The translations under genes were made by a program, and so were the position numbers. DNA of 64,000 bases from contig JAJEAG010000056.1 of assembly GCA_022824265.1 (NCBI GenBank), positions 1-64,000 of the forward strand, given 5' to 3'. Positions 6,779-27,418 of the stretch are shown one piece after another. The number at the start of each line of letters is the position of its first letter. Position 1 is the first letter of the stretch. The stretch comes from Candidatus Poribacteria bacterium (lineage in GTDB: Bacteria; Poribacteria; WGA-4E; WGA-3G). The notes under the pieces were generated by a model. That model searched no databases. It saw nothing but the letters and a program-made list of their open reading frames with translations, and had not been told where the DNA came from.

Positions 6779-8797
6779 ATGGAAAACCAAAAATCCTCAA
6801 TTGCTGCGCCAATAGGATCATTCAAAGGAGATGTAACAACTTGGTCACTCCCTGAAGGTGCGATTGCGCGCTTGGGGCGGGGAAGTGAACCTAAAATGGC
6901 ATTCTCACCTGATGGGCAGTACCTTGTCGTTGGTACCTGCATAGGACTCTGGTTATATGACCTGAATAAACTATCCCCAATCGCACTTTGGGAAGTGGAT
7001 CAAGGATTTGTAGAATCTGTCACCTTTTCTACAAACGGAAAATGGATAGCTGCCAGTTTCGCAGGTCGAATACTCAAGATTTTGGATGTCCAGAATGGTA
7101 TATGCTTGACACAGGTTAAATTAGAGACTTACGTAGATAGTGTGACTTTTTCCTATGATAACCGGTATATCGCAGTTGCTTATTGTGGCTATAGTAGTTC
7201 TCCTGTCGTTGAAGTCTGGCATGCGGCAACCGGAAAACCGTATGCAAAATTCACTGTGGACGCTGAAAGAGCAAGTATGTACCGACCTATTAGTTTCTCG
7301 CATGATACTCGGATGATTGCGTCTACTTGTATGTCCGCTACCACTGAGGGGGCAGATTCAATAATAGTGTGGAATATGGAATGCAGGGAACAAATTGCGT
7401 GTCTCACAAGACACACTCGTTGTGTAATTATTCTTTGCTTTTCACCGTGTGGACAGTATCTTGCATCTGGTGGAGAAGATGGCACCGTGTACGTATGGGA
7501 TGTTAACACTTGGCAACAAGCAAAAGAATATACGGATTATGGTGAAGTATACGGTATTACGCCATCGTATTCACCAGATGGTATTATCCGTGCGGTGATA
7601 GATACTCATGATGAAACAGGTCCTGCTACTATTTCTGTCCTTGACCTTGAAAGCGGAGAACAACTTTACACGGATCAGGTATGGGGTAATACTATAGATT
7701 TTTCCTACACTGGTGATTGGGGCAACAATGTAGTTTTTTCAAACGGTTCCCAACTTGCTTACGAATGCCGACATGAAATGATCAATGTATGGACTGCTGA
7801 CAATCCTGTCAAGCGTCAATTTGTGCATTCGCCTATCTCGTTTCCAACATCAATGTTCTTCTCGCACGATGGAAAAACATTGGCAGTGCAACATCATCAT
7901 GAAGGTGTTATGTTATGGGATATTGAAAGTAAACGTTCGCGTCCAGCGGTTAAAGTGGAATCTGTAGGGAAAAATCAGTTTTTATATAAAACCAATATTG
8001 GTAAACTCCATGTCGTAAGTATCATAAATGACACTGTTAGACTATGGGAAGCAGATGGAAATGGAATACCACTTATTGAAGGAACTGGACACAAATACTG
8101 GAGTGCAGTTCCCGCATTAGCACCAACAGGAAACCTTTTTGCGTATACTGGCGAGGATGGCACCGTACAGGTGTGGGATGTGCAGAGTGGAAAGAAACTT
8201 CATGTATTCACTCATCCTCTTGAACCAAGTGATAACGACGATGATGAAGATGATGGTGATTGTATTTATGAGTTGGAATTCAGTCAGGATGGAAAATTAC
8301 TTGTAAGTGAATCAAAATCTCGAACTTTTAAACTGTGGGATATGGAACTGGGTCAAGAGATAGAATTGTTACCAAGTGGTAGAATTACCGGATTCCGATT
8401 TTGCAGTTGTGGACAGCACATTGTTTGCTTTGGAGATGAAGAAATTCCAAATTGGGATATTATCAACAGAGAATTCTGTAAGGATGATACATGTATGTAT
8501 GAATCGAAAAAGTATGCAATTGAATCAAGATTGTCCAAACCTCAGGAATGTGATTATTTGGATAAACCTGTGTATTCTTCATGTGGGAACTACATTGCGA
8601 GTATAGCATCTTGGAACAAGGATTTAAAGAGGTATCCAATCGGTCTGTGGGAAGTTGAGAGTGGGAAACATCTTGTTACTTTTAGTGGACATGTTTCTGA
8701 TGTGAATGAAATTGCAATCTCTCCAGACAATAAACTATTAGCCAGTGCGAGTCATGATGGTACTATCCTGCTTTGGGATCTTACATTGTATCTTTGA
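6779..8797 (+). CDS. Double-propeller WD40 protein
   Basis: A 672-aa protein made almost wholly of WD40 repeats. I count 14 WD-type blade ends, which fits two seven-bladed beta-propellers. It has no signal peptide or membrane segment, so it is predicted cytosolic. It opens with the LPEGAIARLGRG motif near residue 24 that also heads most paralogues in this cluster. An acidic D/E-rich insertion lies between blades 10 and 11 (nucleotides about 8222-8260). It is a close full-length paralogue of the gene at 11907. No enzymatic domain is seen; the likely role is as a protein-binding scaffold or sensor. An AGAGG 6 nt upstream of the ATG supports the start. Confidence 0.85.
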   Translation: MENQKSSIAAPIGSFKGDVTTWSLPEGAIARLGRGSEPKMAFSPDGQYLVVGTCIGLWLYDLNKLSPIALWEVDQGFVESVTFSTNGKWIAASFAGRILKILDVQNGICLTQVKLETYVDSVTFSYDNRYIAVAYCGYSSSPVVEVWHAATGKPYAKFTVDAERASMYRPISFSHDTRMIASTCMSATTEGADSIIVWNMECREQIACLTRHTRCVIILCFSPCGQYLASGGEDGTVYVWDVNTWQQAKEYTDYGEVYGITPSYSPDGIIRAVIDTHDETGPATISVLDLESGEQLYTDQVWGNTIDFSYTGDWGNNVVFSNGSQLAYECRHEMINVWTADNPVKRQFVHSPISFPTSMFFSHDGKTLAVQHHHEGVMLWDIESKRSRPAVKVESVGKNQFLYKTNIGKLHVVSIINDTVRLWEADGNGIPLIEGTGHKYWSAVPALAPTGNLFAYTGEDGTVQVWDVQSGKKLHVFTHPLEPSDNDDDEDDGDCIYELEFSQDGKLLVSESKSRTFKLWDMELGQEIELLPSGRITGFRFCSCGQHIVCFGDEEIPNWDIINREFCKDDTCMYESKKYAIESRLSKPQECDYLDKPVYSSCGNYIASIASWNKDLKRYPIGLWEVESGKHLVTFSGHVSDVNEIAISPDNKLLASASHDGTILLWDLTLYL

Positions 8798-9097: not shown

Positions 9098-9182
9098 AGT
9101 ATGAATTAGCAAAGTTATACTTTTTTAAACCTTTTACATAAAAACCCTCCTCTATAGAATAAACCGACTTAGGAATCTATCT

Positions 9183-11888
9183 ATGTACAAGAATTTTCTC
9201 GCGTTAAATGACCTGTCTGATGAAGAATTGATTCAGCTTGTACAGAATAGGAACGAAGCAGCTTTTGCAGAGATCATGTCTCGTTGGACATCTCGGATTT
9301 GGGGTGTTATTGTTGCCAACTCAAGGCAACTTCGAGACGCTGAAGAAATTCACACCGACATCTGGATAGCGGTCTGGCAAAACATCAGAGAACTCAGAAA
9401 TGTTGATAGTTTTGGTGCATGGTTACATCGCATTGCATATAACGAATGCAAGCGTTATTATATTTCGGCGCGAAAATCGCGTCATGAAATACCGCATCAA
9501 CACTCAGCGATCGTTGAACAGATTGACCAATATGCTGCTGCGCGATATAGAGAAGCACACTTGATTGCTGATGTGAAAGAAGCTTTACATCACCTCCCAC
9601 AGAAGATACGTTCTGTAGCGGAATTGTTTTATTTAGAATCGTGGAGTATCAAAGAAATTGCTGTGGAACTCAATCTCGCGATTGGTACAGTTAAAACGAA
9701 GTTAAGAGAGATACGAAAACGTCTGCGTGAGGAATTTGATGTAGAAGCTATCAGAGGAGAAGTAATGTCTTCAAAAGATGTTGAAACACACATTCCAATT
9801 CAGATTGAGACATACGAAGCAAAGCCAAGCATGACACCAGCACTGCTGAATGTTGTTGCGGATGACCCTACAGGGAATACTTGGGCAATACCAGAAGGGG
9901 CAATTGTTAGGTTGGGAAAAGGGGGGAACAGGGGAGGTAGCAAACTTTCCCCAAATGGAACACATTTTGCTGTAGCCACTTCAACAGGGTTATGGTGGTA
10001 TGATGTTTCCTCGATGTTGCCTGTTTCGTTATGGGAACCGGGTAAGGGATACATCAGTTCCATCAATTTCTCTCCTGATGGTCAATGGGTCATAATATCT
10101 ACAATATCTGCTGGGAACGGAACCATCAAGATTATGGATATTCAAAGCGGAGAGTGCATCATGCAGATAGAGGATCATGATGTGTGTAAAGATCTTGCAT
10201 GTTCATCAAATGGAAAGTGGGTCGCGACAGCATCTAAAAAAGGCGTTGTAAAGGTGTTGGATATCCAAACTGGTGAGTGCATTGCTCAGATGGATCGTGG
10301 AGAACACATAAGGCAATCAAACGATATTTCCCAACTCCAATTTTCCCCAGATGGTAAATTACTTGCCGCGCATGCTGGAAACCCCAAACTGTACTCAAAC
10401 GACGATGAACTCTTGAATCCTGATACAGAAGGAGATCAAATTTATGTCTGGTGTCCTATATCTGGCAAGGTGATACTCAAGTTTGCAGGACAAGATTTTA
10501 CCTTTTCCTCAGACAGTCGTTTGTTAGCGGTTACATGTCCTGACGAAACCTTGAACAATGACGAAAGCGTTGACCGTTGGATTTCAGTATGGGATGTAAC
10601 ATCATGGGAACTCCTCACACAATTTACAGGACATGACGATTGGATAGATACCATCGCTTTTTCACCGTGTGGACAATTCGTTGCCTCAAGTGACGGGATA
10701 CTACGGGTATGGGATATTGCAACAGGTTCAGAAAAGAATGTTTATCCTGACTTTCCAGACTATCAATATATATTCTACTCAGCGAAAGGGGAACTGTTTG
10801 TAGTAATAGTTCGTTCACCTACTTTGTCTATTGAAGTATGGAATGTAGAACATCGTGAAAAGATATATGAGATATCTGATATTGAAGGTATGGGATATGG
10901 TTTAGCCTTCGCCTATATAAAACGATTGGCTAATACAGCATCCTACAAACAGACAGATGGAAAAATACCGAAGTTCTCAACAGTGCGAGAACCTATTTTT
11001 CCCGAGTGGTTTGATCTGGATATAAATTGGTTAGATGACCAGACACTTGTAAGTAATGGTAGCACAGGAATAGTGTTATGGAGTGTAGACAAGAAATGTT
11101 ACCTTGATACAGTGTCCATAGATGGAGAGATAGATGCTATTACAGTTCTACCTTCTGGTAAAATGCTGGTTTCTTATTTTCCTGATTATATGAAAATGTG
11201 TGTTGCAAGCGTACCTTTTCAGCTAATTGCTGAGTTAGCTTTTCCTGATGAACTATCGGAATTGAATCGTTTTCGTGTATTTTCACCGACTGGTGAGTAT
11301 TTTGCGACAGGAAGTAGTGAAGGTACAGTCTATGTGTGGAATCTCAAGCAACCTGAGCACCCGATACGTCTCAAGGGACATACAGATTACGTTTACAGAT
11401 GTGAGTTTTCGTGGGATGGGAAACGCCTCGTGAGTGGAGCAAGTGACGAGACTGCGCGTGTGTGGGATGTGGAATTAGGTAAAGAAATTGCCAGATTGCC
11501 TGTGGACGAGTCTGACACAGCGTGGGGATTTGTGTTCTCACCCAGTGGTAACCTTATCGCGGGTTCTTTGGATAATGAGATCCGTCTCTGGTGTGCTAAG
11601 CAGTTCACAAAGGTCCGTTCAATACCGCAACCGAAGAAAAACAGGCAGACACATCCACTTGCATTTTCACCTTGTGGACAGTATCTTGCAGCAGCGACTT
11701 GGTGGCAGGAAGGATCGGAAGATATGGCAATTCGGATATGGGATGTTAATTCAGGTGAACAGGTCCATGCCTTCCAAGGACATAATTCACTTGTGCAATC
11801 GCTTGCATTTTCGCCAAATGGCTCAATGTTAGCAATTGGTTGTTGCAATAGCACAATCCTTGTGTGGGATCTAAAACAGTACCTGTAG
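9183..11888 (+). CDS. ECF sigma factor fused to double WD40 propeller
   Basis: A 901-aa fusion. Residues about 14-95 form a sigma70 region 2 (ending near FGAWLHRIAYNECKRYY) and residues about 130-183 form region 4 with the helix-turn-helix IKEIAVELNLAIGTVKTKL. After a linker comes IPEGAIVRLGKG (236-247) and about 14 WD40 blades. There is no transmembrane segment, so the whole protein is predicted cytosolic. The sigma part is a clear paralogue of that at 19039, and the propeller resembles those at 6779 and 11907. An internal ATG with its own ribosome binding site lies at the junction (residue 195). Likely a sigma factor controlled by its own propeller. It is followed 18 nt later by a WD40 gene, forming an operon. 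Confidence 0.85.
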   Translation: MYKNFLALNDLSDEELIQLVQNRNEAAFAEIMSRWTSRIWGVIVANSRQLRDAEEIHTDIWIAVWQNIRELRNVDSFGAWLHRIAYNECKRYYISARKSRHEIPHQHSAIVEQIDQYAAARYREAHLIADVKEALHHLPQKIRSVAELFYLESWSIKEIAVELNLAIGTVKTKLREIRKRLREEFDVEAIRGEVMSSKDVETHIPIQIETYEAKPSMTPALLNVVADDPTGNTWAIPEGAIVRLGKGGNRGGSKLSPNGTHFAVATSTGLWWYDVSSMLPVSLWEPGKGYISSINFSPDGQWVIISTISAGNGTIKIMDIQSGECIMQIEDHDVCKDLACSSNGKWVATASKKGVVKVLDIQTGECIAQMDRGEHIRQSNDISQLQFSPDGKLLAAHAGNPKLYSNDDELLNPDTEGDQIYVWCPISGKVILKFAGQDFTFSSDSRLLAVTCPDETLNNDESVDRWISVWDVTSWELLTQFTGHDDWIDTIAFSPCGQFVASSDGILRVWDIATGSEKNVYPDFPDYQYIFYSAKGELFVVIVRSPTLSIEVWNVEHREKIYEISDIEGMGYGLAFAYIKRLANTASYKQTDGKIPKFSTVREPIFPEWFDLDINWLDDQTLVSNGSTGIVLWSVDKKCYLDTVSIDGEIDAITVLPSGKMLVSYFPDYMKMCVASVPFQLIAELAFPDELSELNRFRVFSPTGEYFATGSSEGTVYVWNLKQPEHPIRLKGHTDYVYRCEFSWDGKRLVSGASDETARVWDVELGKEIARLPVDESDTAWGFVFSPSGNLIAGSLDNEIRLWCAKQFTKVRSIPQPKKNRQTHPLAFSPCGQYLAAATWWQEGSEDMAIRIWDVNSGEQVHAFQGHNSLVQSLAFSPNGSMLAIGCCNSTILVWDLKQYL
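9753..9767 (+). promoter_or_regulatory. Internal ribosome binding site and ATG at sigma/WD40 junction
   Basis: AGAGGAGAAG followed by ATG at 9765, in frame with the fusion gene, with AGGAG 5 nt before the ATG. Initiation here would give a sigma-free WD40 protein of about 707 aa. The equivalent site at 19611-19623 has the same 5-nt spacing. Confidence 0.5.
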
Positions 11889-11906
11889 AACTAAGGAGAT
11901 AATTTG

Positions 11907-13961
11907 ATGGATGACAGAAAATCAGTAATTCCTGCACACGTAGGTGCTGAAGGAGAAGATGTGACAACTTGGGGACTTCCTGAAGGTGCGATTGCACGTT
12001 TGGGGCGCGGGTGTAATCCTGACTTCGCTTTCTCACCAGATGGGCAATACCTTGTAATGGGAAACACATTAGGTCTTTGGGTGTATGATCTGGAAACCCT
12101 ATCCCCTATTGTGCTATGGGAGTCGGAACGTGGTATGATATTTCACATTGCAATTTCACCTAATGGAAAGTGGATTGCTGCCTGCAATTCTGACGAGATT
12201 ATAAAGGTATTGGATATCCAAAATGGCGCGTGTTTAGCACAAGTAAAATTAGAAAATTATATTACAAATTTGACTTTTTCACATGATAGTCAATATCTTG
12301 CAGCAGCATACGCAAGGACTTCTACCGTGGAAATCTGGCATGCTGAAACCTGCAAACCTGTTGCAAAATATACCTCGGACTCAGAAGAAGCAAGTTTCTT
12401 TAGACCTGTTAGTTTCTCACCTGATACGCGACTGATTGCATCTACATATATCCACGACTCCACTGACGGTGAAGCGTCGATAATCGTGTGGGATGTGCAA
12501 AGTCATGAGCAAATTGCATGTCTCTCAGCTCACACAAATTGGATCTCAACAATTTGCTTTTCACCGTGTGGAAAATTTCTTGCTTCCGCTGACGAAGATG
12601 GTCCCGTATATGTATGGGGTGTGGAGAATTGGCGACAAGTGCATTGTTATAAAGATTATGGTGGTGTGTATCGTATTATTCCTTCTTGGACACCAGATGG
12701 AAATTTACGCGCAGCGATTATAAATTTTGACAAGACCGATCCCGTCACAATCTCTGTCCGTGACCTTGAAACCGGGGAACAACTATATAACGATCAAGTT
12801 TGGGGCAATACTGTCCAATTCTCAGATGCAGATGATTGGGGTAATACTGTCATATTTTCAAACGGTTCGCAACTTGCTTACGAATGCAGACATGATTTCA
12901 TCAATGTATGGACACCTGAATATCCATATAGGCGACAGTTTACACATTCGCCTATTTCTTTTCCTTCCTCTACACATTCACGTGATGCGTTTCCTACATT
13001 TGCAGTGTTTTCGGATGATGGCAAAACTTTGGCAGTAAAACATCATCATGAAGGTGTTGTGTTATGGGATATTGCAAGTAAGCGGTCACGTCCGGCAGTA
13101 AAAGTAGAATCAGCAGGTAAAAATCAGTTTTTATATAAAACCGTTAACGGAAAATTCTATGTCGCAAGTATCAGAGATGACACAGTTACACTTTGGGAGG
13201 CTGATAGTGACAGGATGCCGCTTATTGAAGGAACGGGACGGAAATATTGGGGTGCATCTCCAGCATTATCACCGACTGGTAAGTTATTTGCTTATGCAGA
13301 TGAAGATGGTAACCTCAAAGTGTGGGATGTGCAAAGTGGGAATCAAATCTATGAACTTAAACATCCACTTGAGTCAAATGATGAAGGTGATGAAGATGAT
13401 GAAGATACGATTTGTGATTTGCAATTCAATATAGATGGAAAGATACTCGCAAGTAAATCAAATTCTACTTCTCCGGCAGTCATTTTGTGGGACATGGAAT
13501 TTGGTGAAATGAAAGAGACTTCTCCAAGTAATACTGCCACAGGCATCCTCGGAATGCTCGTTTTGAGAAAATTGAAACCCAGATCTCGTGAGGTCGTCCA
13601 TATTTCTCATGATAGAAAGTATTTATCTTCTTTAGGAAATAACACATATTTGTATGATGTGAAAGAGAATGATTATCTTACTCGGTTGTCCTTACCGAAA
13701 GGGTTAGAAGATATGTTTTGGGTTGCTGAATTTTCTATGTGTGGGAAATATTTTGCAGCTGGAACATGGTGGCAAGAAGGTATGGAGAAAATGGTAATCT
13801 GTTTATGGGAGGTAGAAACCGGCAAACAGATTGCTACATTTAGAGGACATCCAACAGATGTTCATGCTCTTGCCTTTTCGCCAGACAACAAACTCTTAGC
13901 AAGTACAAGTTATGATGGTTCTATCCTTTTATGGGATCTTACACCTTATATAGATGATTAA
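11907..13961 (+). CDS. Double-propeller WD40 protein
   Basis: A 684-aa WD40 protein with about 14 blade ends and no export signal. LPEGAIARLGRG appears near residue 29. It aligns along its full length with the gene at 6779, including the acidic insertion between blades 10 and 11 (nucleotides about 13376-13408), so the two are duplicates flanking the sigma-WD40 gene. The start is set at ATG 11907, 8 nt after AAGGAG, rather than the TTG at 11904. Lying 18 nt downstream of the sigma-WD40 gene, it is probably co-transcribed with it, and it could act as a free partner or competitor of the fused propeller. Confidence 0.85.
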   Translation: MDDRKSVIPAHVGAEGEDVTTWGLPEGAIARLGRGCNPDFAFSPDGQYLVMGNTLGLWVYDLETLSPIVLWESERGMIFHIAISPNGKWIAACNSDEIIKVLDIQNGACLAQVKLENYITNLTFSHDSQYLAAAYARTSTVEIWHAETCKPVAKYTSDSEEASFFRPVSFSPDTRLIASTYIHDSTDGEASIIVWDVQSHEQIACLSAHTNWISTICFSPCGKFLASADEDGPVYVWGVENWRQVHCYKDYGGVYRIIPSWTPDGNLRAAIINFDKTDPVTISVRDLETGEQLYNDQVWGNTVQFSDADDWGNTVIFSNGSQLAYECRHDFINVWTPEYPYRRQFTHSPISFPSSTHSRDAFPTFAVFSDDGKTLAVKHHHEGVVLWDIASKRSRPAVKVESAGKNQFLYKTVNGKFYVASIRDDTVTLWEADSDRMPLIEGTGRKYWGASPALSPTGKLFAYADEDGNLKVWDVQSGNQIYELKHPLESNDEGDEDDEDTICDLQFNIDGKILASKSNSTSPAVILWDMEFGEMKETSPSNTATGILGMLVLRKLKPRSREVVHISHDRKYLSSLGNNTYLYDVKENDYLTRLSLPKGLEDMFWVAEFSMCGKYFAAGTWWQEGMEKMVICLWEVETGKQIATFRGHPTDVHALAFSPDNKLLASTSYDGSILLWDLTPYIDD

Positions 13962-14047
13962 TTCTTATGATAAAGATCTGTTGAGCAGTATATCTGGAAC
14001 AAAATGGTATTTCAGTTTACTCACATTTGTTTCAATTATGACAATTA

Positions 14048-14075
14048 TGCAACCTGACAACATAAAATTCGCGTC
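14048..14075 (+). promoter_or_regulatory. Candidate ECF-type promoter
   Basis: TGCAACC (14048-14054), a 17-bp spacer, CGTC (14072-14075), preceded by TGACAATTA. The layout resembles ECF promoters with an AAC -35 and a CGTC -10. The same arrangement with identical spacing is found at 26384-26411 and 27472-27499. It lies about 38 nt before the start of a sigma-WD40 gene, which suggests autoregulation. Confidence 0.5.
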
Positions 14076-14112
14076 TTAATTACTGTATGCTCATGTTATG
14101 ATGAGGTAACTA

Positions 14113-16839
14113 ATGAAGAAAAGCGATGCTGAATTGATTGATGAAATCCTATCGGGTGATGAGGATGCATTTAGTGCCTTAGTCCAAAAATACCAAAAAA
14201 GCGTTCATGCACTTGTTTGGAGAAAAATAGGTGATTTCCATATCGCAGAAGAAATTACACAAGATACATTCCTACATGTATACAAAAAATTACCAACCCT
14301 TAAAAATCCGAGACAATTCGCTGGATGGTTGTATGTGATAGTTAATCGGCAATGCATTGCATGGCTCCGCAAAAATAACAAACAGGCTGTGCAATCCCTT
14401 GAAACCACAAGTCAAGAGACTTTAGAAGAAACTGCTTATGCATGTTTTGTTTCAGAAAAGCGTGAAGAAATAGAGGTTGAAAGGCGACGTGAAGTTGTTG
14501 ACAGACTTCTGAGAAAGCTACCAGAGAGCGAACGTACTGTTGTAATACTCCATTACCTTGGGGAGATGTCTTGTGATGCAATTGGTAAATTTTTAGGTGT
14601 ATCCCCGAACACTGTGAAAAGTAGACTCAGCCGTGCTCGAAACCGTCTAAGAGAGAATGAATCACTTATCAGAGACACTCTCGGAAGTGTTAAATTATCC
14701 CCTAATTTATCTGATAATATTATGAGTGAAATTGGTAATGTCAGTCATACATCTCCATCCGGAACTAAACCGTTATTGCCGTTAGCATCATTAGGATCAT
14801 CTGTATTATTGGTTATACTTCTCATTGGCGCGAGTAATAAATACCTGACTCATTTTCAGTTGCCTTATAGTTTTGATGCGCAATTAGAAACTACGATTGA
14901 AATAGTCGAATCACCTGTCATACTAAATATCACACCAAAACTTGATGTGCAAAATCGGTTTGGAAATGATGCTGTGCGCGGGAAAAGCAGCAATGACGGT
15001 CTACAAGAAGGAAAAACATCTATGCAAAACAATCTTGCACAAGATTCTATATATTGGAAATTACCTGAAGGTGCTAAAGCACGTCTGGGTAAAGGTTATG
15101 TATATAGGATAAAGTATTCACCAGATGGCAATTTATTAGCGGTATCAGGAACTATAGGTATTTGGATATATGATGCACATACAGGTGAAGAACACAATCT
15201 CCTCTTGGGACACGGTTTAGGTGGTGTGCCAGCAATTGCCTTTAGTCCTAATAATCAACTTCTTGCAAGCGGTGGTAGAGACAAAACAATTCGACTATGG
15301 GATCCTAACACCGGACAACATAAAGCAACATTCATTGGACATCAAGATGCTGTTTATTCGGTGGCGTTTAGTCCCAATGGAAAGACTCTCGTAAGCTGTG
15401 GTGAGGATGAAACAATCCGTATGTGGGATGTAGCAACAGGTGAACTACGTTTTACATTTGCGGGACATGCTGGAGGTGTATCTGAAGTTGTATATTCTCC
15501 AGATGGTGATCTACTTGCCAGTTACGGATGGGATGAGATGATTCACATGTGGGATGCCCATACTGGAAGATACTTACGTTCACTTGATGGACAAACAAGA
15601 AATATTAATACCATAGTATTTTCTCCAAACAGTGAGATGTTAGCAAGTGGATGCGCGGAAGGAGCAATCAAGTTGTGGGATACAAACACTGGACAAACAC
15701 GCACAACACTACAAACTGCATCAGATTATAGGGGAGTAAGTTCAGTTTCATTCTCTCCAGACGGTAGGACATTTGTTAGCACGAATTATGAAGACGGTGT
15801 CATACAGTTTTGGGATGTAGCAACATGTGAACGAATCAAAACAATTGAAAGTCCGCCTGATACAACCGAGAAAACTGTGTTCTCTCCGGATGGGAAAACG
15901 TTAGTAAATGCTGGTGGAGATGGTACAATCCAGTTTTGGAATGTTGATACCTTGGAATCAATACGAACTCTTACAGGATACGCAAATATGTTTACTGATA
16001 TGGCATACTCACATGATGGAAATACACTCGCTATAGTAAGTTCTATGGAAAGGCTTCAATTATGGGATACACGCACTGGGAAATTGATGAAAACATATAC
16101 TTCACCTTATGGTAGTCTATTCTGTATTGCATTTTCACCAGATGGAGTAACCCTTGCGTGTGGAGGGAATATGGAAAATGCTGTCTGGTTTATCAATACT
16201 GAAACTTTGGAACATGGACACAATTTCGCAGGACCTAAAGGAAACGTTGAATCGGTAGCATTCAGTCCGGATGGACAGTTGCTTGCCTGTGGTGATTCCG
16301 ATGGAAACATCTATTTGTGGAATGCGGCTACTGGCGAAACTACAAAAATTCTTGAATGGCACGACGATTATGTACGAACTTTGGTGTTCTCAACCGATGG
16401 AAAGATGCTTGTGAGTACAAGTGATGCGGAAATTCGATTTTGGGACGTTACCACAGGAAAGACATTAAAAAAAGTCTCTGGTTACGATGTTTCATTGTCA
16501 CCTGATTGGCAAACGTTTGTAACTTTCGGCAGTGACCGCATGGTAAAATATTGGAACATGGATCAGGATGACCCTCTCAAGACTTTTTCACCAGAAGAAA
16601 AGTCAATTTTCCCAAGGTATTCACCAGATGGTCGAACATATACTACCATTGATTATGGAGGTGAAACCATATCATTTTGGAATGCGGAGACATCTGAAAT
16701 TCTTAAAACTTACTCTATCGGACATACAAAGAGTATCTGGTCAGAAGGTATAATGTTTAAGTCTTATTCACCAGATGGTCGAACATTTGCAACAGCAGGA
16801 TGGGACAGTACAATCCTTCTATGGGATGTCCCAAAATAA
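14113..16839 (+). CDS. Membrane-anchored ECF sigma-WD40 fusion
   Basis: A 908-aa protein. Region 2 of an ECF sigma factor spans about residues 5-90 and region 4 about 125-180, with the helix-turn-helix CDAIGKFLGVSPNTVKSRLSR. A proline/serine-rich linker leads to one strong transmembrane helix at about residues 220-241. A further linker of about 75 residues precedes LPEGAKARLGKG (317-328) and about 14 WD40 blades. Predicted topology puts the sigma domain in the cytosol and the propellers in the periplasm. The sigma part belongs to a different ECF subgroup from those at 9183 and 19039. A candidate ECF promoter lies just upstream. No anti-sigma gene is nearby, so the propeller is a plausible built-in regulator. 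Confidence 0.85.
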   Translation: MKKSDAELIDEILSGDEDAFSALVQKYQKSVHALVWRKIGDFHIAEEITQDTFLHVYKKLPTLKNPRQFAGWLYVIVNRQCIAWLRKNNKQAVQSLETTSQETLEETAYACFVSEKREEIEVERRREVVDRLLRKLPESERTVVILHYLGEMSCDAIGKFLGVSPNTVKSRLSRARNRLRENESLIRDTLGSVKLSPNLSDNIMSEIGNVSHTSPSGTKPLLPLASLGSSVLLVILLIGASNKYLTHFQLPYSFDAQLETTIEIVESPVILNITPKLDVQNRFGNDAVRGKSSNDGLQEGKTSMQNNLAQDSIYWKLPEGAKARLGKGYVYRIKYSPDGNLLAVSGTIGIWIYDAHTGEEHNLLLGHGLGGVPAIAFSPNNQLLASGGRDKTIRLWDPNTGQHKATFIGHQDAVYSVAFSPNGKTLVSCGEDETIRMWDVATGELRFTFAGHAGGVSEVVYSPDGDLLASYGWDEMIHMWDAHTGRYLRSLDGQTRNINTIVFSPNSEMLASGCAEGAIKLWDTNTGQTRTTLQTASDYRGVSSVSFSPDGRTFVSTNYEDGVIQFWDVATCERIKTIESPPDTTEKTVFSPDGKTLVNAGGDGTIQFWNVDTLESIRTLTGYANMFTDMAYSHDGNTLAIVSSMERLQLWDTRTGKLMKTYTSPYGSLFCIAFSPDGVTLACGGNMENAVWFINTETLEHGHNFAGPKGNVESVAFSPDGQLLACGDSDGNIYLWNAATGETTKILEWHDDYVRTLVFSTDGKMLVSTSDAEIRFWDVTTGKTLKKVSGYDVSLSPDWQTFVTFGSDRMVKYWNMDQDDPLKTFSPEEKSIFPRYSPDGRTYTTIDYGGETISFWNAETSEILKTYSIGHTKSIWSEGIMFKSYSPDGRTFATAGWDSTILLWDVPK
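15008..15024 (+). promoter_or_regulatory. Internal AAGGA and ATG before the propeller
   Basis: AAGGA (15008-15012) lies 9 nt before an in-frame ATG at 15022 (residue 304), just ahead of the LPEGAKARLGKG motif and after the membrane helix. Initiation here would give a cytosolic propeller of about 605 aa. It is weaker than the sites in the other two fusions. Confidence 0.35.
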
Positions 16840-16904
16840 GTAGTAATTTCCAGAATAATATCTAATTTATAACCCACACAATAATCAAAGGAGTTCATAC
16901 TTGA

Positions 16905-18836
16905 ATGAAAATACTCAGCATCTTGCCTTATATATTACCATTAATATCTACCTCCTTTCTTCTCACATTCTTATCAGGTGTTGCTTTTTCCCAAAACTAT
17001 ATCCACTTAAGTCTACCTGAAGGAGCTAAGGCACGTCTTGGTAAAGGAAGAATACATCAGCTTAAGTATTTTCACGATGGTAAACGTTTGGCTGTTGCTA
17101 CTGCAATCGGAGTATGGATTTATGATGTTCAGACAGGTGAAGCACTTGATCTGCTCACTGGACATACGGCACAGGTTAAGTCAATTGTCTTCAGTCCAGA
17201 CGGAGAAACTTTAGCCATAGGGAGTGAGGACAATACTATCCAATTGTGGGATACCAAAACACATAAACTTAATGCAAAATGTATTGGTCATGAAAAGGAT
17301 GTCAATTTATTAGTGTTTAGTCCTGACAGTAAGATGCTTGTAAGTACCAGCAAGGATTGGAAGATGCGGCTCTGGGACGTACAAACAGGGAAATCACTTA
17401 AAACTATCACAGGTTGTGGTGCCGAAGATATGTATGCAATAACCTATACCCTCGACGGTGCTATGTTCCTCACTTTCAGGTATGATGACAGGTTTGAAGG
17501 ATATATTGAATTCTGGGATGGGAAAACTGGTGAGTTTGTAGAATCTGTTCTTATTGAAACAAAATTTGAGGCAGCATCGTTTTCTTCCTACTGCAAAATT
17601 CTGGCTATCATAGGTAATTACTCGTCTCCGCTTCAGTTTTGGGATGTAGAGAGTGGAAAACTTCTGCAAAGTGCTGAGAAGTGTGATGAAAGTTATGAGT
17701 CTTTAGAGTTTTCACCTGATGGACGTAATGTGATTACTATTGGAAAATGGGACTCCGTAAGTATTTGGGATGTAAGCACAGCAGAACGTCTGAACAGCAT
17801 GTCGTTTGGAAAACCGAATAATTCGGGCACTTATTCACCGGACGGGAAGACAATAGCAAGTGGAAGTGATGATGGTAGCATCCGATTTTGGGATGCTGCA
17901 ACTGGAGAACTTAAGAATACTATCACTGGTCACACGGATTCGCGCATCTTTTCCGCTGCTTTTTCTCCTGACGGTAGTACTCTTGCTACTGGTGGAGAGT
18001 CCAAAATCCAATGGTGGAATCCACAGACCGGTAAACGCTTGAAAACTATTACAGAACCGCGTTCCAGTGTTCATACTATAAAATACTCTCCTACTGCGAA
18101 GATTTTTGCTACTGGAGGCACATCCAAGAAAGCACGTTTGTGGGATGCGAAAACCGGCAGGTTCCTTGGCAGATTCTCAGTACACAAAGATCAGAGTCCT
18201 TACGGGAATAAGGAAAAGGTTTCTTCTGTCGCCTTTTCACCCGATGGTAACAAACTTGCGACCGGAGGTAGTGACAATCAAGTTTGTTTATGGGAAATTC
18301 TAACTGATGAACAATATTTGATTGGTGAACGTTTAGCAACCTTTACCGAACATACAGAGAGTGTTACTTCTGTAGAATTTTCTCCCGATGGGAAAGTCCT
18401 TGCAAGTGGAAGCAAAGATAAGACAATACAGATGTGGGATGTAAAATCTCGTAAGCATTTGAAAACCCTAACTGGACATGAAGAACCTATCACTGCTGTT
18501 GTTTATTCTCCCGATGGCAGTATTCTTGCCAGTGGAAGTGAAGATGGCACAATCCGCTTATGGGACGTAAATTCGGACAACTTTTTGTCCTCAAAAATAG
18601 AGGATGCAGGACATATAACTTCGCTCGTTTATTCTCCTGATGGTAGAATACTTGCATGTAGTACTGATGACGACAATGTAGTTCACCTATGGGATACCAA
18701 GACAGGACAGCTCCTTCAGACATTTACGGGACATACACAAAGTGTCAATGATGTTGTGTTTTCACCTGATGGTAAGACACTCGCAAGTGTAAGTGATGAC
18801 GGGACTGTCCTTTTGTGGGATCTCACAAAATTGTAA
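16905..18836 (+). CDS. Secreted double-propeller WD40 protein
   Basis: A 643-aa protein with an N-terminal signal peptide (hydrophobic core about residues 8-27, probable cleavage after VAFS or nearby), then LPEGAKARLGKG at about residues 37-48 and 14 WD40 blade ends, consistent with two propellers. It is predicted periplasmic. It lies 65 nt after the membrane-anchored sigma-WD40 gene, whose propeller faces the same compartment and carries the identical motif. The pair could therefore interact outside the membrane. AGGAG about 11 nt upstream supports the ATG. Confidence 0.82.
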   Translation: MKILSILPYILPLISTSFLLTFLSGVAFSQNYIHLSLPEGAKARLGKGRIHQLKYFHDGKRLAVATAIGVWIYDVQTGEALDLLTGHTAQVKSIVFSPDGETLAIGSEDNTIQLWDTKTHKLNAKCIGHEKDVNLLVFSPDSKMLVSTSKDWKMRLWDVQTGKSLKTITGCGAEDMYAITYTLDGAMFLTFRYDDRFEGYIEFWDGKTGEFVESVLIETKFEAASFSSYCKILAIIGNYSSPLQFWDVESGKLLQSAEKCDESYESLEFSPDGRNVITIGKWDSVSIWDVSTAERLNSMSFGKPNNSGTYSPDGKTIASGSDDGSIRFWDAATGELKNTITGHTDSRIFSAAFSPDGSTLATGGESKIQWWNPQTGKRLKTITEPRSSVHTIKYSPTAKIFATGGTSKKARLWDAKTGRFLGRFSVHKDQSPYGNKEKVSSVAFSPDGNKLATGGSDNQVCLWEILTDEQYLIGERLATFTEHTESVTSVEFSPDGKVLASGSKDKTIQMWDVKSRKHLKTLTGHEEPITAVVYSPDGSILASGSEDGTIRLWDVNSDNFLSSKIEDAGHITSLVYSPDGRILACSTDDDNVVHLWDTKTGQLLQTFTGHTQSVNDVVFSPDGKTLASVSDDGTVLLWDLTKL

Positions 18837-19038
18837 GAGTTCCAGAATCCATTTCTTTTTTATTCCAATTTCATATTCCTAATTGAGTTGTGTTATTTCT
18901 TATTGCACCTGATTCCCTGTCTTCAAATACGCACTCAAAGACAGAATTTTGACCTAAAAAATAAAAAATACTCATTTTTTAAACCGTTTCCTATTTTATT
19001 TCCCTCTTTATATTGGAAACCTAATTTGAAATTGGTCT

Positions 19039-21573
19039 ATGGACACCGATTTGATGACTCTCAGTGATCTTCAAGATGATGCATTGATACGACTTGTACA
19101 AAACCGTGATGAGGCAGCTTTTGCTGAACTCATGTCGCGTCATACACCGCGTATCTGGGGTATAATTGTTTCAAAATCCAGACAACATCGTGATGCAGAA
19201 GAGATCCTCATGAATGTGTGGATAGCAGTCTGGGAGAATATTGAAGGTCTAAGGAAAATTGATAGTTTTGATACTTGGTTACGTCGAATTACATTAACCG
19301 CTTGTAGAAGATATTACAGTTCACACCGTCGTTCTCGTGATGTCATTCTTCAGAGTCATGAGGAATTATTTGAATATATTGACAGAGCTGCTCCTTCGCG
19401 TTATCGTGAAACACAATTACGTCAAGATGCCAGAGAGGCGGTCGATCATCTACCACAAAGGGTGCGTTCCATTGCACGATTATATTATCTTGAATCAAGG
19501 AATGTCAACGATATCGCGGATCAATTAAACATAGCAATAGGAACAGTCAAGACAAGATTAACTGAAATACGTACGATCCTACGTAAAGAATTTAGTGTTG
19601 AACTACAGCAGGGAGATGTTATGCATGTAGAGTCTGATAAAAGGCAAAGTCATGACAAGTATAAGGAGAACTATCTTCCTAAAGGAGCACTTGCACGATT
19701 TGGAAAAGGTTACATTTTTGATTTTTCTTATTCACCCGATGGTACACGATTTGCTGTGGGATGTACAATCGGTATCTGGTTATATGATACTCAAACCGGT
19801 GAAGAAATAAATTTTTTAAAAGGTCATAGCTATTATGTGAGTGGTGTGGATTATAGTCCTGATGGTAGCACACTTGCGAGTTATAGTGATTGGAATGACT
19901 ACACAATACGTCTGTGGGATCCAGATACTGGGGAATTGAAGGCATTGCTCACCGGACATGCAGCGGATATATCTTCTCTTGTTTTCAGTCCAGATGGCAA
20001 AACTATTGCGAGTGGAAGTAAAGACAAAACTATTCGTTTATGGAATGGTGTCACTGGTGAACTAAAAGCAACTTTGGAAGGTCATACTGATAAGATCAAT
20101 ACATTAGCGTTCAATCCAGATGGAAAGACACTTGCAAGCGGTGGAAGTGATGAAGTCATACGAATTTGGGATGTTTCAACAAGCGAACTTCTCTTAGTCT
20201 TTGCTGCGCACGCGAATTCTATTGATTTTCTTATGTATTCACCTAATGGGGAGATACTTATTAGTCAGGGACGCGATAACAATGTATGTTTATGGGATGC
20301 ACGGACCGGTGAGTTTATACGTTTATTCAAAATGAATGCAAAAGGAGTAGATTCAATTGATTTTTCAAGAGATTGGAAAACTCTTGCATGTGTTGACTCA
20401 GATAGAACACTCCATTTTTGGAATCCGCATACAGGTGAACAACTGAATACAATCAATTGGAAGAGAAAAATTAAGAATATCCTGTTTTCTTCAGATGGTA
20501 GTATCTGTGCCTGTAATGACGACGAAGATGGAACAATGCTTCTAATTGATGCCAAAAAGGGACAGTTATTATGTGACCTCAAAATACCTGGATTAAGAAA
20601 AGCTGTTAATGATTTTAAGTATTCACCCGATGGACGTTCACTTGCCGTTTCTAACGGATTTGAGATATATTTCTGGGATGTGAAACAAGGTGAACTTGAT
20701 AAGACAATTACGGGTTATTCTGAGGTTGTAAATTCTGTAGCATTTTCTCCAAATGGTGGTACAATAGTGAGTTTAGACAGTTACGTCCGGATTTGGGATA
20801 TAAACACACAGAAACTCATAAAGACAATTGATCCAAAAAGTTATGTTAGATCAATTGCATATTCCCCTGATGGTGAGACTCTTGCTTGCGGAACTCGTGA
20901 GAACACAATTCTGCGATGGGATGTTGACACATGGGAACAAAAGACAACCTTTGAAGCACACACGAAAGGATTATCATGCATAAACTACAGTTCTAATGGT
21001 AAAACCCTCGCAAGTGGAAGTTGGGACAAGACAATCCGATTGTGGAATTCAAATACTGGAGAACTCTTAAACACACTTATTGGACATACAGATGGGGTTC
21101 ATGATGTTGCCTTTTCACCGAATGGTGGTACTCTCGCAAGTGGAGGTTCCGAAGGAACAATTCGGTTTTGGGATGTTGCGACTGGCAAACTAATTAGAAC
21201 AATTGACACACAGTCTGAGAATTGTATAGATTCTGTGGCGTATTCACCTGACGGAAAGACAATTGCATGTACTAGTGATAACGGTGCTGATGGAATCCGT
21301 TTTTGGGATGTTAGCACCGGTGATCTCATAAAAACCGTAGCCGTGAAAGCAGCAGCATTTTCCGTAGAGTTTTCTCCGGATGGCAGCACATTTGCAAGTG
21401 GTGGTATAGGAGAACTCTCTGTTTGGGATGCTAAAACCTATAGCATTGTAAAAACTTTTACAGGACATATTGAACCTGTTTATTCAGTAGTCTATTCACC
21501 CGATGGTAAGACACTCGCAAGCGGTTGTAGAGATAGTACTGTGATTATATGGGATTTGGATTTAACGGAGTAA
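19039..21573 (+). CDS. ECF sigma factor fused to double WD40 propeller
   Basis: An 844-aa fusion. The first 190 residues are an ECF sigma factor very similar to that at 9183: region 2 about 14-95, region 4 about 130-183 with DIADQLNIAIGTVKTRL. A short linker leads to LPKGALARFGKG (213-224) and 14-15 WD40 blades. There is no membrane helix, so it should be cytosolic. An internal GGGAG-N5-ATG (ATG at 19621) marks the sigma/WD40 junction, as at 9765. There is no obvious ribosome binding site at the first ATG; ATG 19054 is an alternative start. It is followed 33 nt later by another WD40 gene. Confidence 0.85.
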   Translation: MDTDLMTLSDLQDDALIRLVQNRDEAAFAELMSRHTPRIWGIIVSKSRQHRDAEEILMNVWIAVWENIEGLRKIDSFDTWLRRITLTACRRYYSSHRRSRDVILQSHEELFEYIDRAAPSRYRETQLRQDAREAVDHLPQRVRSIARLYYLESRNVNDIADQLNIAIGTVKTRLTEIRTILRKEFSVELQQGDVMHVESDKRQSHDKYKENYLPKGALARFGKGYIFDFSYSPDGTRFAVGCTIGIWLYDTQTGEEINFLKGHSYYVSGVDYSPDGSTLASYSDWNDYTIRLWDPDTGELKALLTGHAADISSLVFSPDGKTIASGSKDKTIRLWNGVTGELKATLEGHTDKINTLAFNPDGKTLASGGSDEVIRIWDVSTSELLLVFAAHANSIDFLMYSPNGEILISQGRDNNVCLWDARTGEFIRLFKMNAKGVDSIDFSRDWKTLACVDSDRTLHFWNPHTGEQLNTINWKRKIKNILFSSDGSICACNDDEDGTMLLIDAKKGQLLCDLKIPGLRKAVNDFKYSPDGRSLAVSNGFEIYFWDVKQGELDKTITGYSEVVNSVAFSPNGGTIVSLDSYVRIWDINTQKLIKTIDPKSYVRSIAYSPDGETLACGTRENTILRWDVDTWEQKTTFEAHTKGLSCINYSSNGKTLASGSWDKTIRLWNSNTGELLNTLIGHTDGVHDVAFSPNGGTLASGGSEGTIRFWDVATGKLIRTIDTQSENCIDSVAYSPDGKTIACTSDNGADGIRFWDVSTGDLIKTVAVKAAAFSVEFSPDGSTFASGGIGELSVWDAKTYSIVKTFTGHIEPVYSVVYSPDGKTLASGCRDSTVIIWDLDLTE
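19611..19623 (+). promoter_or_regulatory. Internal ribosome binding site and ATG at sigma/WD40 junction
   Basis: GGGAG (19611-19615), 5 nt, then an in-frame ATG at 19621. The flanking codons read GDV-M, matching GEV-M in the paralogue at 9765. Initiation would give a free propeller of about 650 aa. Confidence 0.5.
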
Positions 21574-21606: not shown

Positions 21607-23505
21607 ATGATGCATATACCGCAACCCGATAAACAATGGATACTACCCCCTAATGCTAAAGCACGTATCGGTAAAGGGGGAATCAATGTAATAGAGTATT
21701 TTCCTGACGGTACTCGTCTTGCAGTTGCGAGTACGATAGGTATTTGGATTTACGATGTGCATACATGTGAACTGCTTGAACTGATTACGGGACATACTGG
21801 ACCAGTCAATTCAATTGTCTTTTCCCCAGATGGTAATTTGTTTGCTACGGCAAGTGATGATAACACTGCACGCCTGTGGGATACCGTCACCTGTGAACAC
21901 AAAGTCAGTTACATTGGACATACAGATGTTATCAATTCTGTTGACATTAGTCCTGATGGTAAGAGAATAGTTACAGCAAGTGATGACAGGACGATTGGTC
22001 TGTGGGATATACATACGGGAGAACTGATTGCCAAACTTGAGGGGCATACGGAAAAGGTACTATCAGCCGTTTTTTCTCCAGACGGTACTGTGATTGCCAG
22101 TAGTGAAGAATTTGGAAAAGAGGGTGGAATTCGAATTTGGGATGCACACACAGGTGAATTTCTGAAATCTTATTCAGAAGATACCGACTGGGTGGAATAT
22201 GTCGTATATAGTCCTGACGGTAAGTCACTCATCAGTCGAGATACATGTAGAGAGATAAACTTCTGGGATGCTGAAACAGGTAAAAAACTGAAACCGCTTG
22301 AAACAGATGATTGGATGAGTTTCTTCAGTCCAATAGCTATTTCTCCAAACAGAAATTCATTAGCAATAGGTGTAAGGGATGGTGATGTTTGCCTTTGGGA
22401 CATCAACACCAGAAGATTCTTGAAAGAATTTGAACTTGGTGAAAGCGTAGATTTATACCCCTCTTCTGTTTCGTTTTCACCTGATGGGGAGACGATTGCT
22501 TCCGCACATGAGGATGGCACAATACGGTTTTGGGATGAAAACTCAGGTAAGATTACAAAAGATATTACGGGTCACACACCCCATGAGTCTTCTACGCAGA
22601 AATCAGAAGGATCAAGCAGTGATTCTAAACGTACAATTTCTGTTGCATTTTCTCCAGATGGAAAAACCTTTGTAAATTCGTACGATACGGAAATACATAT
22701 AAGAAATTCAGAATGTGGTGAAATTCAAACAATTATTACAGGAGCAAGCGAAAATGTGCGTATAGTGACGTTTTCACAGGACAGTAAAATGCTCGCAAGT
22801 GGTGGAAATTCGCCAAAAACACAATTGTGGGATACACATCACGGAAGATTCCTTGGATCCTATCCTGGACATAAGGAATGTGTATCTACCTTAGATTTTT
22901 CGCCTGATGGTTGCGTACTTGCGAGTGGAGGTGAGGACAATTCTATCTGTTTATGGAAAGTCAGAAAAGGTGAACTTTACATTATTGGTGAACTTCTGGT
23001 AACACTGTCTGAACATACAGATGTTGTATCTTCTGTAACGTTTTCACCAAATGGTAATAGCCTTGTCAGTGGGAGTCATGACAGCACAGTCCGATTGTGG
23101 GATGTCCAAACTGGAAATCTTATGAAGACCTTAAATGGGCATGCGGCACCTGTAAATGACGTAGTATATTCGCCTGATGGGAGTATCTTTGCCAGTGGAA
23201 GTAGTGATGGAAAGATACGGTTGTGGGACGGTCAAACTGGTGAACAACTGAAAATCCTAAATGAGCAATCTCATAACATCATATCCGTTGCGTTTTCTCC
23301 AAGCGGTAGTATTATTATTGGTGGGACCACTGGTCCAATATACTTTTGGGACGTGCAGACAGGAAAACTACTGGGAACCTATAACGGACACACGGATGTT
23401 GTAGATAGTCTCGCATTTTCTCCAGATGGTAAAACACTTGCCAGTGGTAGTTATGATGGGACAGTCCTCTTGTGGGAAATTTCTTCCTTAATGCTAAACC
23501 CTTAG
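21607..23505 (+). CDS. Double-propeller WD40 protein
   Basis: A 632-aa WD40 protein with 14 blade ends and no signal peptide, predicted cytosolic. The head motif is degenerate here (LPPNAKARIGKG near residue 18). Blade 8 is degenerate, with IHIRN in place of the WD dipeptide. ATG 21607 and ATG 21610 are adjacent; the second has better spacing from AAGGAAG. It lies 33 nt after the sigma-WD40 gene at 19039, repeating the sigma-fusion-then-free-propeller order seen at 9183/11907 and 14113/16905. Confidence 0.82.
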   Translation: MMHIPQPDKQWILPPNAKARIGKGGINVIEYFPDGTRLAVASTIGIWIYDVHTCELLELITGHTGPVNSIVFSPDGNLFATASDDNTARLWDTVTCEHKVSYIGHTDVINSVDISPDGKRIVTASDDRTIGLWDIHTGELIAKLEGHTEKVLSAVFSPDGTVIASSEEFGKEGGIRIWDAHTGEFLKSYSEDTDWVEYVVYSPDGKSLISRDTCREINFWDAETGKKLKPLETDDWMSFFSPIAISPNRNSLAIGVRDGDVCLWDINTRRFLKEFELGESVDLYPSSVSFSPDGETIASAHEDGTIRFWDENSGKITKDITGHTPHESSTQKSEGSSSDSKRTISVAFSPDGKTFVNSYDTEIHIRNSECGEIQTIITGASENVRIVTFSQDSKMLASGGNSPKTQLWDTHHGRFLGSYPGHKECVSTLDFSPDGCVLASGGEDNSICLWKVRKGELYIIGELLVTLSEHTDVVSSVTFSPNGNSLVSGSHDSTVRLWDVQTGNLMKTLNGHAAPVNDVVYSPDGSIFASGSSDGKIRLWDGQTGEQLKILNEQSHNIISVAFSPSGSIIIGGTTGPIYFWDVQTGKLLGTYNGHTDVVDSLAFSPDGKTLASGSYDGTVLLWEISSLMLNP

Positions 23506-26383: not shown

Positions 26384-26411
26384 TGCAACCAAATCACCAA
26401 AACAACGCGTC
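26384..26411 (+). promoter_or_regulatory. Candidate ECF-type promoter
   Basis: TGCAACC (26384-26390), a 17-bp spacer, CGTC (26408-26411), with TGATAATCA before it. Same layout and spacing as at 14048. It lies about 75 nt upstream of the single-propeller WD40 gene. Confidence 0.5.
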
Positions 26412-26485: not shown

Positions 26486-27418
26486 ATGGAGATGATGAGT
26501 GCGGATCACGCACTTTATTTAACATTTGAAGGATATCAGGAAGGAGTCAATAGTGTAGTATTTAGTCAATATGGTAATACACTCGCAGCAGATATGGACA
26601 ACACCATCAGATTATGGGATATTTCAACAGGACAGGAAAAGAAGATATTCTGGGTGGATATCGGAGAGCATTCCACAAGTGGTGTTAAAAGTGTAGCAAT
26701 TAGTCCAAACGGATGTATGATCGCTGGGGGTATTAACGAAATAGAGACAATCTGTTTATGGGATATGGAAACAACTGAACAAATCAATTTAATACGTGAA
26801 AGAAAAAGCAAAGCTATGCATTGGGTCAATGCTGTTGCATTCAGTATTGATGGTAAGATGCTTGCAAGTGGAAGTGAAGACGGTAATCTTTACTTGTGGA
26901 ATGTAATAACAGGTGAAAAAATAAAAGCACTTACAGAAGATACAGAGAATATCTTTAGTATTGCATTTTCACCTGATGGCAAAACGATAGCGAGTGGAAA
27001 TGCTGATAATACTATACAATTATGGGATCTCGCATCTGGCGAAAACACCGCGACTTTGGAAGGACATACTGATTGGGTTTTCTCTGTAGTTATTAGTCCA
27101 GATGGCAAAACACTCGCAAGCGGTAGTAAAGACAAAACAATACGACTTTGGGATACTACCACAAATAAAGAAAAGAAACCACTTATCGGACATCAGAACA
27201 TTGTATGGAGTGTTGCATTTAGTCCAGATGGGAAAATACTTGCAAGTGGAAGTGAAGACAACACAATACGTCTGTGGGATATTGCTACAGGTGAACATAT
27301 TGAAACGATAACAGGACACACTAGTCCTGTTAAATGCGTAGCATTTAGCCCAGATGGAACAAAAATAGCAAGTAGCACTGACAATGGTGCTGTGTTTATT
27401 TGGGAAATCTATCTTTGA
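26486..27418 (+). CDS. Single-propeller WD40 protein
   Basis: A 310-aa protein of seven WD40 repeats, matching one seven-bladed propeller with no extra domains. It lacks the LPEGA head motif and any signal peptide, so it is predicted cytosolic. The repeats are closer to consensus than in the double-propeller proteins (GHTDWVFSVVISPDGKTLASGSKDKTIRLWD type). AGGAG precedes the ATG and a candidate ECF promoter lies upstream. It is the last intact gene of the array. Confidence 0.85.
   Translation: MEMMSADHALYLTFEGYQEGVNSVVFSQYGNTLAADMDNTIRLWDISTGQEKKIFWVDIGEHSTSGVKSVAISPNGCMIAGGINEIETICLWDMETTEQINLIRERKSKAMHWVNAVAFSIDGKMLASGSEDGNLYLWNVITGEKIKALTEDTENIFSIAFSPDGKTIASGNADNTIQLWDLASGENTATLEGHTDWVFSVVISPDGKTLASGSKDKTIRLWDTTTNKEKKPLIGHQNIVWSVAFSPDGKILASGSEDNTIRLWDIATGEHIETITGHTSPVKCVAFSPDGTKIASSTDNGAVFIWEIYL

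Follow-up and report, generated by a model that had tools for sequence, protein, structure and literature searches.

Bacterial genes can encode two products read in the same frame, an internal initiation giving rise to an N-terminally shorter isoform, for instance in the case of CheA-L/CheA-S and of IF2 alpha/beta. In beta-carboxysomes, the accessible passages of PMC8580825 describe an internal ribosome-binding site in the gene of CcmM, from which a shorter isoform is produced. Among the sigma factors, ECF57 members carry C-terminal WD40-like extensions that are thought to regulate the sigma, and IutY/ECF243 and ECF52 are membrane-tethered sigmas with a C-terminal membrane-anchored extension (both as presented in the accessible passages of PMC8999054). 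In this sense, neither internal starts nor C-terminal domains on sigma factors are new.

Here, we analyzed a window, i.e., the whole stretch of 64,000 nt of contig JAJEAG010000056.1 (assembly GCA_022824265.1), from Candidatus Poribacteria, which are sponge-associated bacteria. Its genome (coded G000) amounts to 4.45 Mb in 100 contigs, and the two named relatives found are the Candidatus Poribacteria isolates SB0677_bin_25 and APA_bin_83. The window contains three genes, starting at 9183, 14113, and 19039, whose N-terminal parts (194-303 aa) are ECF sigma factors, with Pfam matches to PF04542 and PF08281 and none listed for regions 3 or 1.1, and whose C-terminal parts are WD40 propellers (Pfam). 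A sequence-only reading had noticed, between the two parts of each gene, an in-frame ATG preceded by a Shine-Dalgarno-like (SD-like) stretch, and its coordinates are correct, as are the 5-nt spacing and the flanking residues of the first two sites. Indeed, ATG 9765 is codon 195 of the ORF 9183-11888 (flank GEV-M), ATG 19621 is codon 195 of the ORF 19039-21573 (flank GDV-M), and ATG 15022, located 9 nt after an AAGGA, is codon 304 of the ORF 14113-16839 (Table 1). The same reading had proposed that such genes could make both a fusion and a free propeller or, alternatively, that the ATG marks the place where two ancestral genes were joined. In the case of the genes at 9183 and 19039, both proposals are favored together, with a downstream start that would still be under selection; for the gene at 14113, the dual start is not supported. 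Our main reading, to which we assign a probability of about 0.8 on the basis of sequence comparisons, is that the 9183 and 19039 genes are members of a family (family A) of autoregulated sigma genes devoid of a stop codon, which would yield both sigma-X and free X, X being the product of the downstream gene.

Table 1. Features of the three sigma-propeller fusions and of their surroundings (window positions).
Feature	Position	Strand	Basis and remarks
Promoter-like element, family A, TTTAAAC-N19-CTCTATA, upstream of first fusion	9124..9156	+	strict match
ECF sigma part, family A, without stop codon	9183..9764	+	PF04542, PF08281; ORF 9183-11888
Internal SD AGAGGAG, 5-nt gap to ATG	9753..9759	+	sequence; -9.1 kcal/mol; conserved in family A
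Internal ATG and predicted free WD40 propeller, 707 codons	9765..11888	+	also C-terminal part of 901-aa fusion
Propeller ORF without sigma, 15 nt after first fusion	11904..13961	+	resembles propeller ORFs at 6779, 16905 (by eye)
Promoter-like element, family B, TGCAACC-N16-GCGTC	14048..14075	+	2 matches in window vs 0.02 expected
ECF sigma part, family B	14113..14700	+	PF04542, PF08281; ORF 14113-16839
Likely transmembrane segment between sigma and propeller, LLPLASLGSSVLLVILLIG	14773..14829	+	translation read by eye
Claimed third site AAGGA-N9-ATG	15008..15024	+	AAGGA 15008-15012, ATG 15022; -5.7 kcal/mol
Promoter-like element, family A, TTTAAAC-N19-CTCTTTA	18978..19010	+	strict match
ECF sigma part, family A, without stop codon	19039..19620	+	PF04542, PF08281; ORF 19039-21573
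Internal SD GGGAG, 5-nt gap to ATG	19611..19615	+	-8.2 kcal/mol; kept with altered letters in L061-L068
Internal ATG and predicted free WD40 propeller, 650 codons	19621..21573	+	also C-terminal part of 844-aa fusion
Propeller ORF without sigma, 33 nt after 19039 fusion	21607..23505	+	likeness to propellers by eye

The sigma part at 19039 shares 57% identity with that at 9183 and 53% with that of a third gene of the genome, carried by contig C38, and is distant from the one at 14113. We defined family A in G000 as these three genes, and family B as the sigma family of the gene at 14113, which counts 26 members in G000 including itself (i.e., 25 paralogues). A family A match (E <= 1e-20) was obtained in at least 60 of the 84 genomes of the phylum, nearly all of them within the family to which the window's genome belongs. 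Our family A sample consists of 152 loci among the matches listed, the matches in G060, G066, G070, and G072, genomes that fall outside the window's family, the one in G005, and two stand-alone sigma genes (L284 and L285) being excluded. The strength of an SD is given as its predicted pairing with the anti-SD, in kcal/mol, and the energy comparisons were performed on 149 of the 152 loci, as three either repeated the junction of another locus or had no Met in range. In the window, each of the two family A fusions is closely followed by a propeller ORF without sigma, which is possibly carried on the same transcript as the fusion; the propeller ORFs at 6779 and 16905 were tested with Pfam.

All of the 152 family A loci present an ATG or a GTG with an SD of -5 kcal/mol or better, located 5-36 codons past the end of region 4, and homologues lacking the SD or the ATG, sought as counter-evidence for the genes at 9183 and 19039, were not encountered among them. 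The junction SD reaches -7 kcal/mol in 141 loci, against 33 of 2263 other 32-codon stretches taken from the same ORFs; about 12 of the 152 sites are weaker, including, at -5.1, that of L061, which is closely related to the 19039 gene. The mean SD energy is -8.72 at the 149 distinct junctions versus -1.44 at the 1414 other in-frame ATGs, only 1.3% of which attain -7. The mechanical first starts of the family A sigma ORFs average -2.83 and, as a yardstick, the 31 mechanical ORF starts of the window average -4.89, with 13 of them at -7 or better. When the six codons before the start were resampled among synonymous codons (1000 resamplings), the mean obtained at the junctions was -5.50 (sd 0.19, lowest of 1000 = -6.11), well above the observed value, and the same resampling had no effect at the other ATGs (percentile 0.51). 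Thinning the sample to 53, 18, 12, and 8 representatives (at 85, 70, 65, and 60% identity) gave observed means of -9.29, -8.62, -8.78, and -9.03 against nulls of -5.45, -5.24, -5.34, and -4.65, respectively, and each time none of 1000 resamplings was as low. These comparisons indicate that the junction SD of family A is under selection at the nucleotide level, beyond the residues that it encodes. A chance origin of the two family A sites of the window is ruled out by the control stretches, the other ATGs, and the synonymous nulls. The local RNA structure is weak at the junction (-5.45 vs -8.40 kcal/mol), but we rejected it as separate evidence because this mostly reflects a low GC content (against shuffles, z -0.06 vs -0.26, p 0.03).

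Family A genes also share a promoter-like element. Its consensus, TTTTTTAAACC-N18-CTCTTTA (also written TTTAAACC-N18-CTCTTTA), lies with fixed spacing upstream of 139 of the 148 genes for which enough sequence is available, while only 2 matches were found inside family A ORFs (537,822 nt, both strands). The window holds exactly two strict matches (0.00 expected), those of Table 1. In seven genomes of the family, we counted 21 strict sites, at least 18 of which precede family A genes; two others are inside ORFs resembling each other's orthologues (L286 and L294), and the remaining one precedes a 372-aa ORF (L283) that is transposon-protein-like by eye. The reversed pattern gave 5 matches in the same seven genomes, and the element is absent from G079, a genome without family A match among the matches listed. 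As the element is nearly private to family A, the regulon likely corresponds to family A's own genes, and we infer that the family A sigma reads this element, in front of its own gene included. On the other hand, only the free partner could matter, the sigma part being an inactive leader, and the weak SD at the mechanical start of the sigma (mean -2.8) suggests that the fusion may indeed be a minor product. We consider such a leader unlikely since sigma regions 2 and 4 are recognizable in all the members scanned, and since one promoter-like element is kept across partners, as expected of an active, promoter-reading sigma.

In every one of the 152 loci, the ORF continues past the sigma part and encodes a partner. 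The partners were assigned by blastp against references (the references or close relatives being checked with Pfam), on stretches of limited length in which an additional downstream partner could be missed. They are FtsZ-like proteins (59 loci), WD40 propellers (51), FtsZ-like followed by DnaE (30), DnaN (8) and, more rarely, a sigma-like protein with an HTH_16 match (2), DnaE (1), or PurC (1). The WD40 partner named by the sequence-only reading is thus right for the three window genes and too narrow for the family. On the sigma tree, the partner changes 14 times, or at least 8 times when FtsZ and FtsZ+DnaE are lumped, and the junction SD persists through those at least 8 changes.

The organization of several of these fusions can be detailed. 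The C38 gene (L276:904-4998(-), G000:C38) is a 1365-aa ORF made of an ECF sigma, an FtsZ-like GTPase (FtsZ_C), and DNA polymerase III alpha domains (PHP, NTPase, finger). L119, a short sigma-FtsZ fusion of the ~400-aa type, has the tubulin/FtsZ GTPase domain only, with no FtsZ_C match in Pfam. At codon 1424 of the 1758-aa sigma-FtsZ-DnaE ORF of L291:915-6188(-) (G047), there is a further strong SD-ATG, close to where the ORF's last DnaE-type Pfam match ends (HHH_6, 1357-1419). In L100 and L117, the family A sigma is in frame with the sigma-like (HTH_16) protein, and the junction SD is of -12.0. Lastly, the sigma-PurC fusion L289:2360-3868(-) is the only SAICAR synthetase found in G039, a genome that is 84% complete, and its internal Met is four residues away from the start of three free PurC genes.

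The stand-alone sigma genes give an indication of how the stop-less genes arose. L284 ends with EFGVESE and a stop, with AAGGAG directly after its TGA, and this TGA aligns with the read-through position of the fused genes (typically the AGA of the R-G-x-T-M stretch); L285 is similar, with an earlier in-frame TGA. These two sequences, one intact and one broken, fit a scenario in which the sigma gene lost its stop ahead of a downstream gene endowed with its own SD. A two-gene ancestor is therefore likely, and the SD and ATG could be nothing but the fossil of two fused genes, no longer working. We regard this as very unlikely. Indeed, the SD is kept below 60% sigma identity, through the partner changes, and with altered letters, phase, and residues, and it exceeds the synonymous null (0/1000). 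Moreover, the border between FtsZ and DnaE within the three-part fusions bears no comparable site: none at or below -6.5 was listed there in L276, L277, L278, L279, L281, and L291 (the three-part fusions L280 and L282 being outside that scan), which shows that a former gene border alone does not keep such a site.

Part of the signal could come from the protein itself, if the fusion needed a linker ending in R-G-x-T-M that happened to be coded by SD-like codons. The residues are partly conserved, with R in 94 and G in 104 of 141 aligned junctions at positions -4 and -3, respectively, and M invariant among variable neighbors (the rows having been selected for M there). In addition, the amino-acid sequence by itself predicts a moderate SD, the resampled codons still averaging -5.5 kcal/mol. 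However, the SD cores are found in all three codon phases at the family A junctions and so encode different residues. In the FtsZ fusions L159 and L162, M is replaced by V only as a GTG, behind an intact AGGAGG (-12.3 and -10.2). The DnaN fusions have neither the R-G-x-T-M motif nor an SD-preceded ATG at the usual junction, but an SD of -8.2 to -12.3 reappears ~20 codons downstream, before DnaN's own Met, in 8/8 cases; two of four free DnaN loci match the start motif, and both begin at that Met, with SDs of -8.6 and -9.3. A purely protein-level constraint is hence hardly credible. That the stretch would only slow ribosomes for folding, without initiation, agrees with its location, invariably between sigma and partner, but is extremely improbable, since a translational pause needs no correctly spaced start codon and all 152 loci have one, including the two GTG and the shifted DnaN cases.

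Returning to the autoregulated, stop-less sigma gene, we propose the following mechanism. Family A sigma genes would have lost their stop codon and would continue in frame into the gene X that follows, whose ribosome-binding site and start codon would still work at the junction, so that each mRNA would be translated from two starts, the upstream one giving sigma-X and the internal one free X. The use of the internal start and the dual products are inferred from the sequence. Judging by the SDs, the internal start would be the stronger one and free X the more abundant product. The sigma part would most likely recognize the family's shared promoter and, as this promoter lies almost only before family members, sigma-X would drive the gene that encodes it and thereby also the supply of free X. 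Whether X is free, polymerized, or bound may then gate the fused sigma, making the supply of X self-regulating; this feedback role is the least certain step, and we hold it as possible but rather doubtful. Free paralogues of FtsZ, DnaN, and DnaE are also present in the genomes tested, which weakens the case for needing free X from the fusion gene. In a more general form, which we offer as a tentative idea with the odds against it, the stop-less sigma, the private promoter, and the ribosome-binding site with its start would constitute a portable module set before at least six kinds of genes. It would deliver much free X and little sigma-X, sigma-X would join X assemblies, and the fraction of free sigma would set its own transcription, thereby metering the amount or assembly of X.

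The gene at 14113, which had been put together with the two others, has to be separated from them: its sigma is of a different family, it carries a likely membrane anchor, and its internal ATG has a weak SD and is kept in only 15 of the 30 nearest loci of the genus. ATG 15022 lies past the likely membrane segment, unlike the family A sites, and, by eye, a hydrophobic stretch follows the sigma part in most family B members. In the 15 relatives having the ATG, the SD averages -5.64 versus -4.89 for the synonymous null, and 21 of 500 nulls were as low. Six relatives without this ATG have a GTG there, which a single base change also explains. The third site, weak and kept in close relatives only, is thus unsupported as a conserved start and is probably not one. 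By its description, the 14113 gene and its family would resemble IutY/ECF243 and ECF52 in their likely membrane-anchored extension, as far as the accessible passages of PMC8999054 describe them.

Other positions were considered in family B. A conserved Met near codon 203 was rejected as a start (SD -0.39 vs null -0.39, n=16). A Met near codon 184, right after region 4, is present in 16 of the 26 G000 paralogues with an SD of -9.57 versus a null of -3.95; it is found in 6 of the 30 loci of the genus sample, and the AAGGAGG-like codons encode a K-E-E stretch. These data are suggestive of a possible internal start, which would give the membrane part without the sigma. A strong junction site (-9.58 vs null -5.30, n=5), in the same arrangement as in family A, occurs in five family B paralogues from which the usual membrane stretch is missing (L047, L048, L051, L055, whose partner is DnaN, and L056). 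Many family B paralogues are preceded by elements that look, by eye, like TGCAACC-N16-GCGTC, and one is also found at 26384-26411, before the WD40 ORF at 26486, a possible member of the family B regulon.

Among open-licence articles of PubMed Central, searched by title and abstract, we found none on sigma-FtsZ, sigma-DnaE, or sigma-DnaN genes or on internal starts in fused sigmas, and the accessible passages of PMC8195603 contain nothing on these fusions. ECF57 and family A are both ECF sigmas that can carry C-terminal WD40-like repeats, but the accessible passages of PMC8999054 on ECF57 mention neither an internal start, nor an exchange for FtsZ, DnaE, DnaN, or PurC, nor a free extension. An extension of the ECF57 type is found in 51 of the 152 family A members, the other partners accounting for 101, and the likeness rests on this extension, whereas ECF57 is also defined by a group signature and by a pair of conserved cysteines that connect sigma2 to sigma4. 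The PubMed Central search likewise brought up no family in which a single sigma module, with a conserved internal restart, is attached to proteins of division, replication, metabolism, and scaffolding. If true, this arrangement would represent a compact link between the amount of a protein and the transcription of its gene, and gene callers restricted to the longest ORF would annotate the fusion while overlooking the free protein. CheA and IF2 are single genes, whereas in family A the leader would be modular, its partners exchangeable, and its promoter self-directed. Similarly, CcmM, as presented in the accessible passages of PMC8580825, involves no transcription factor, while in family A one N-terminal module is found with the same junction in front of many partners.
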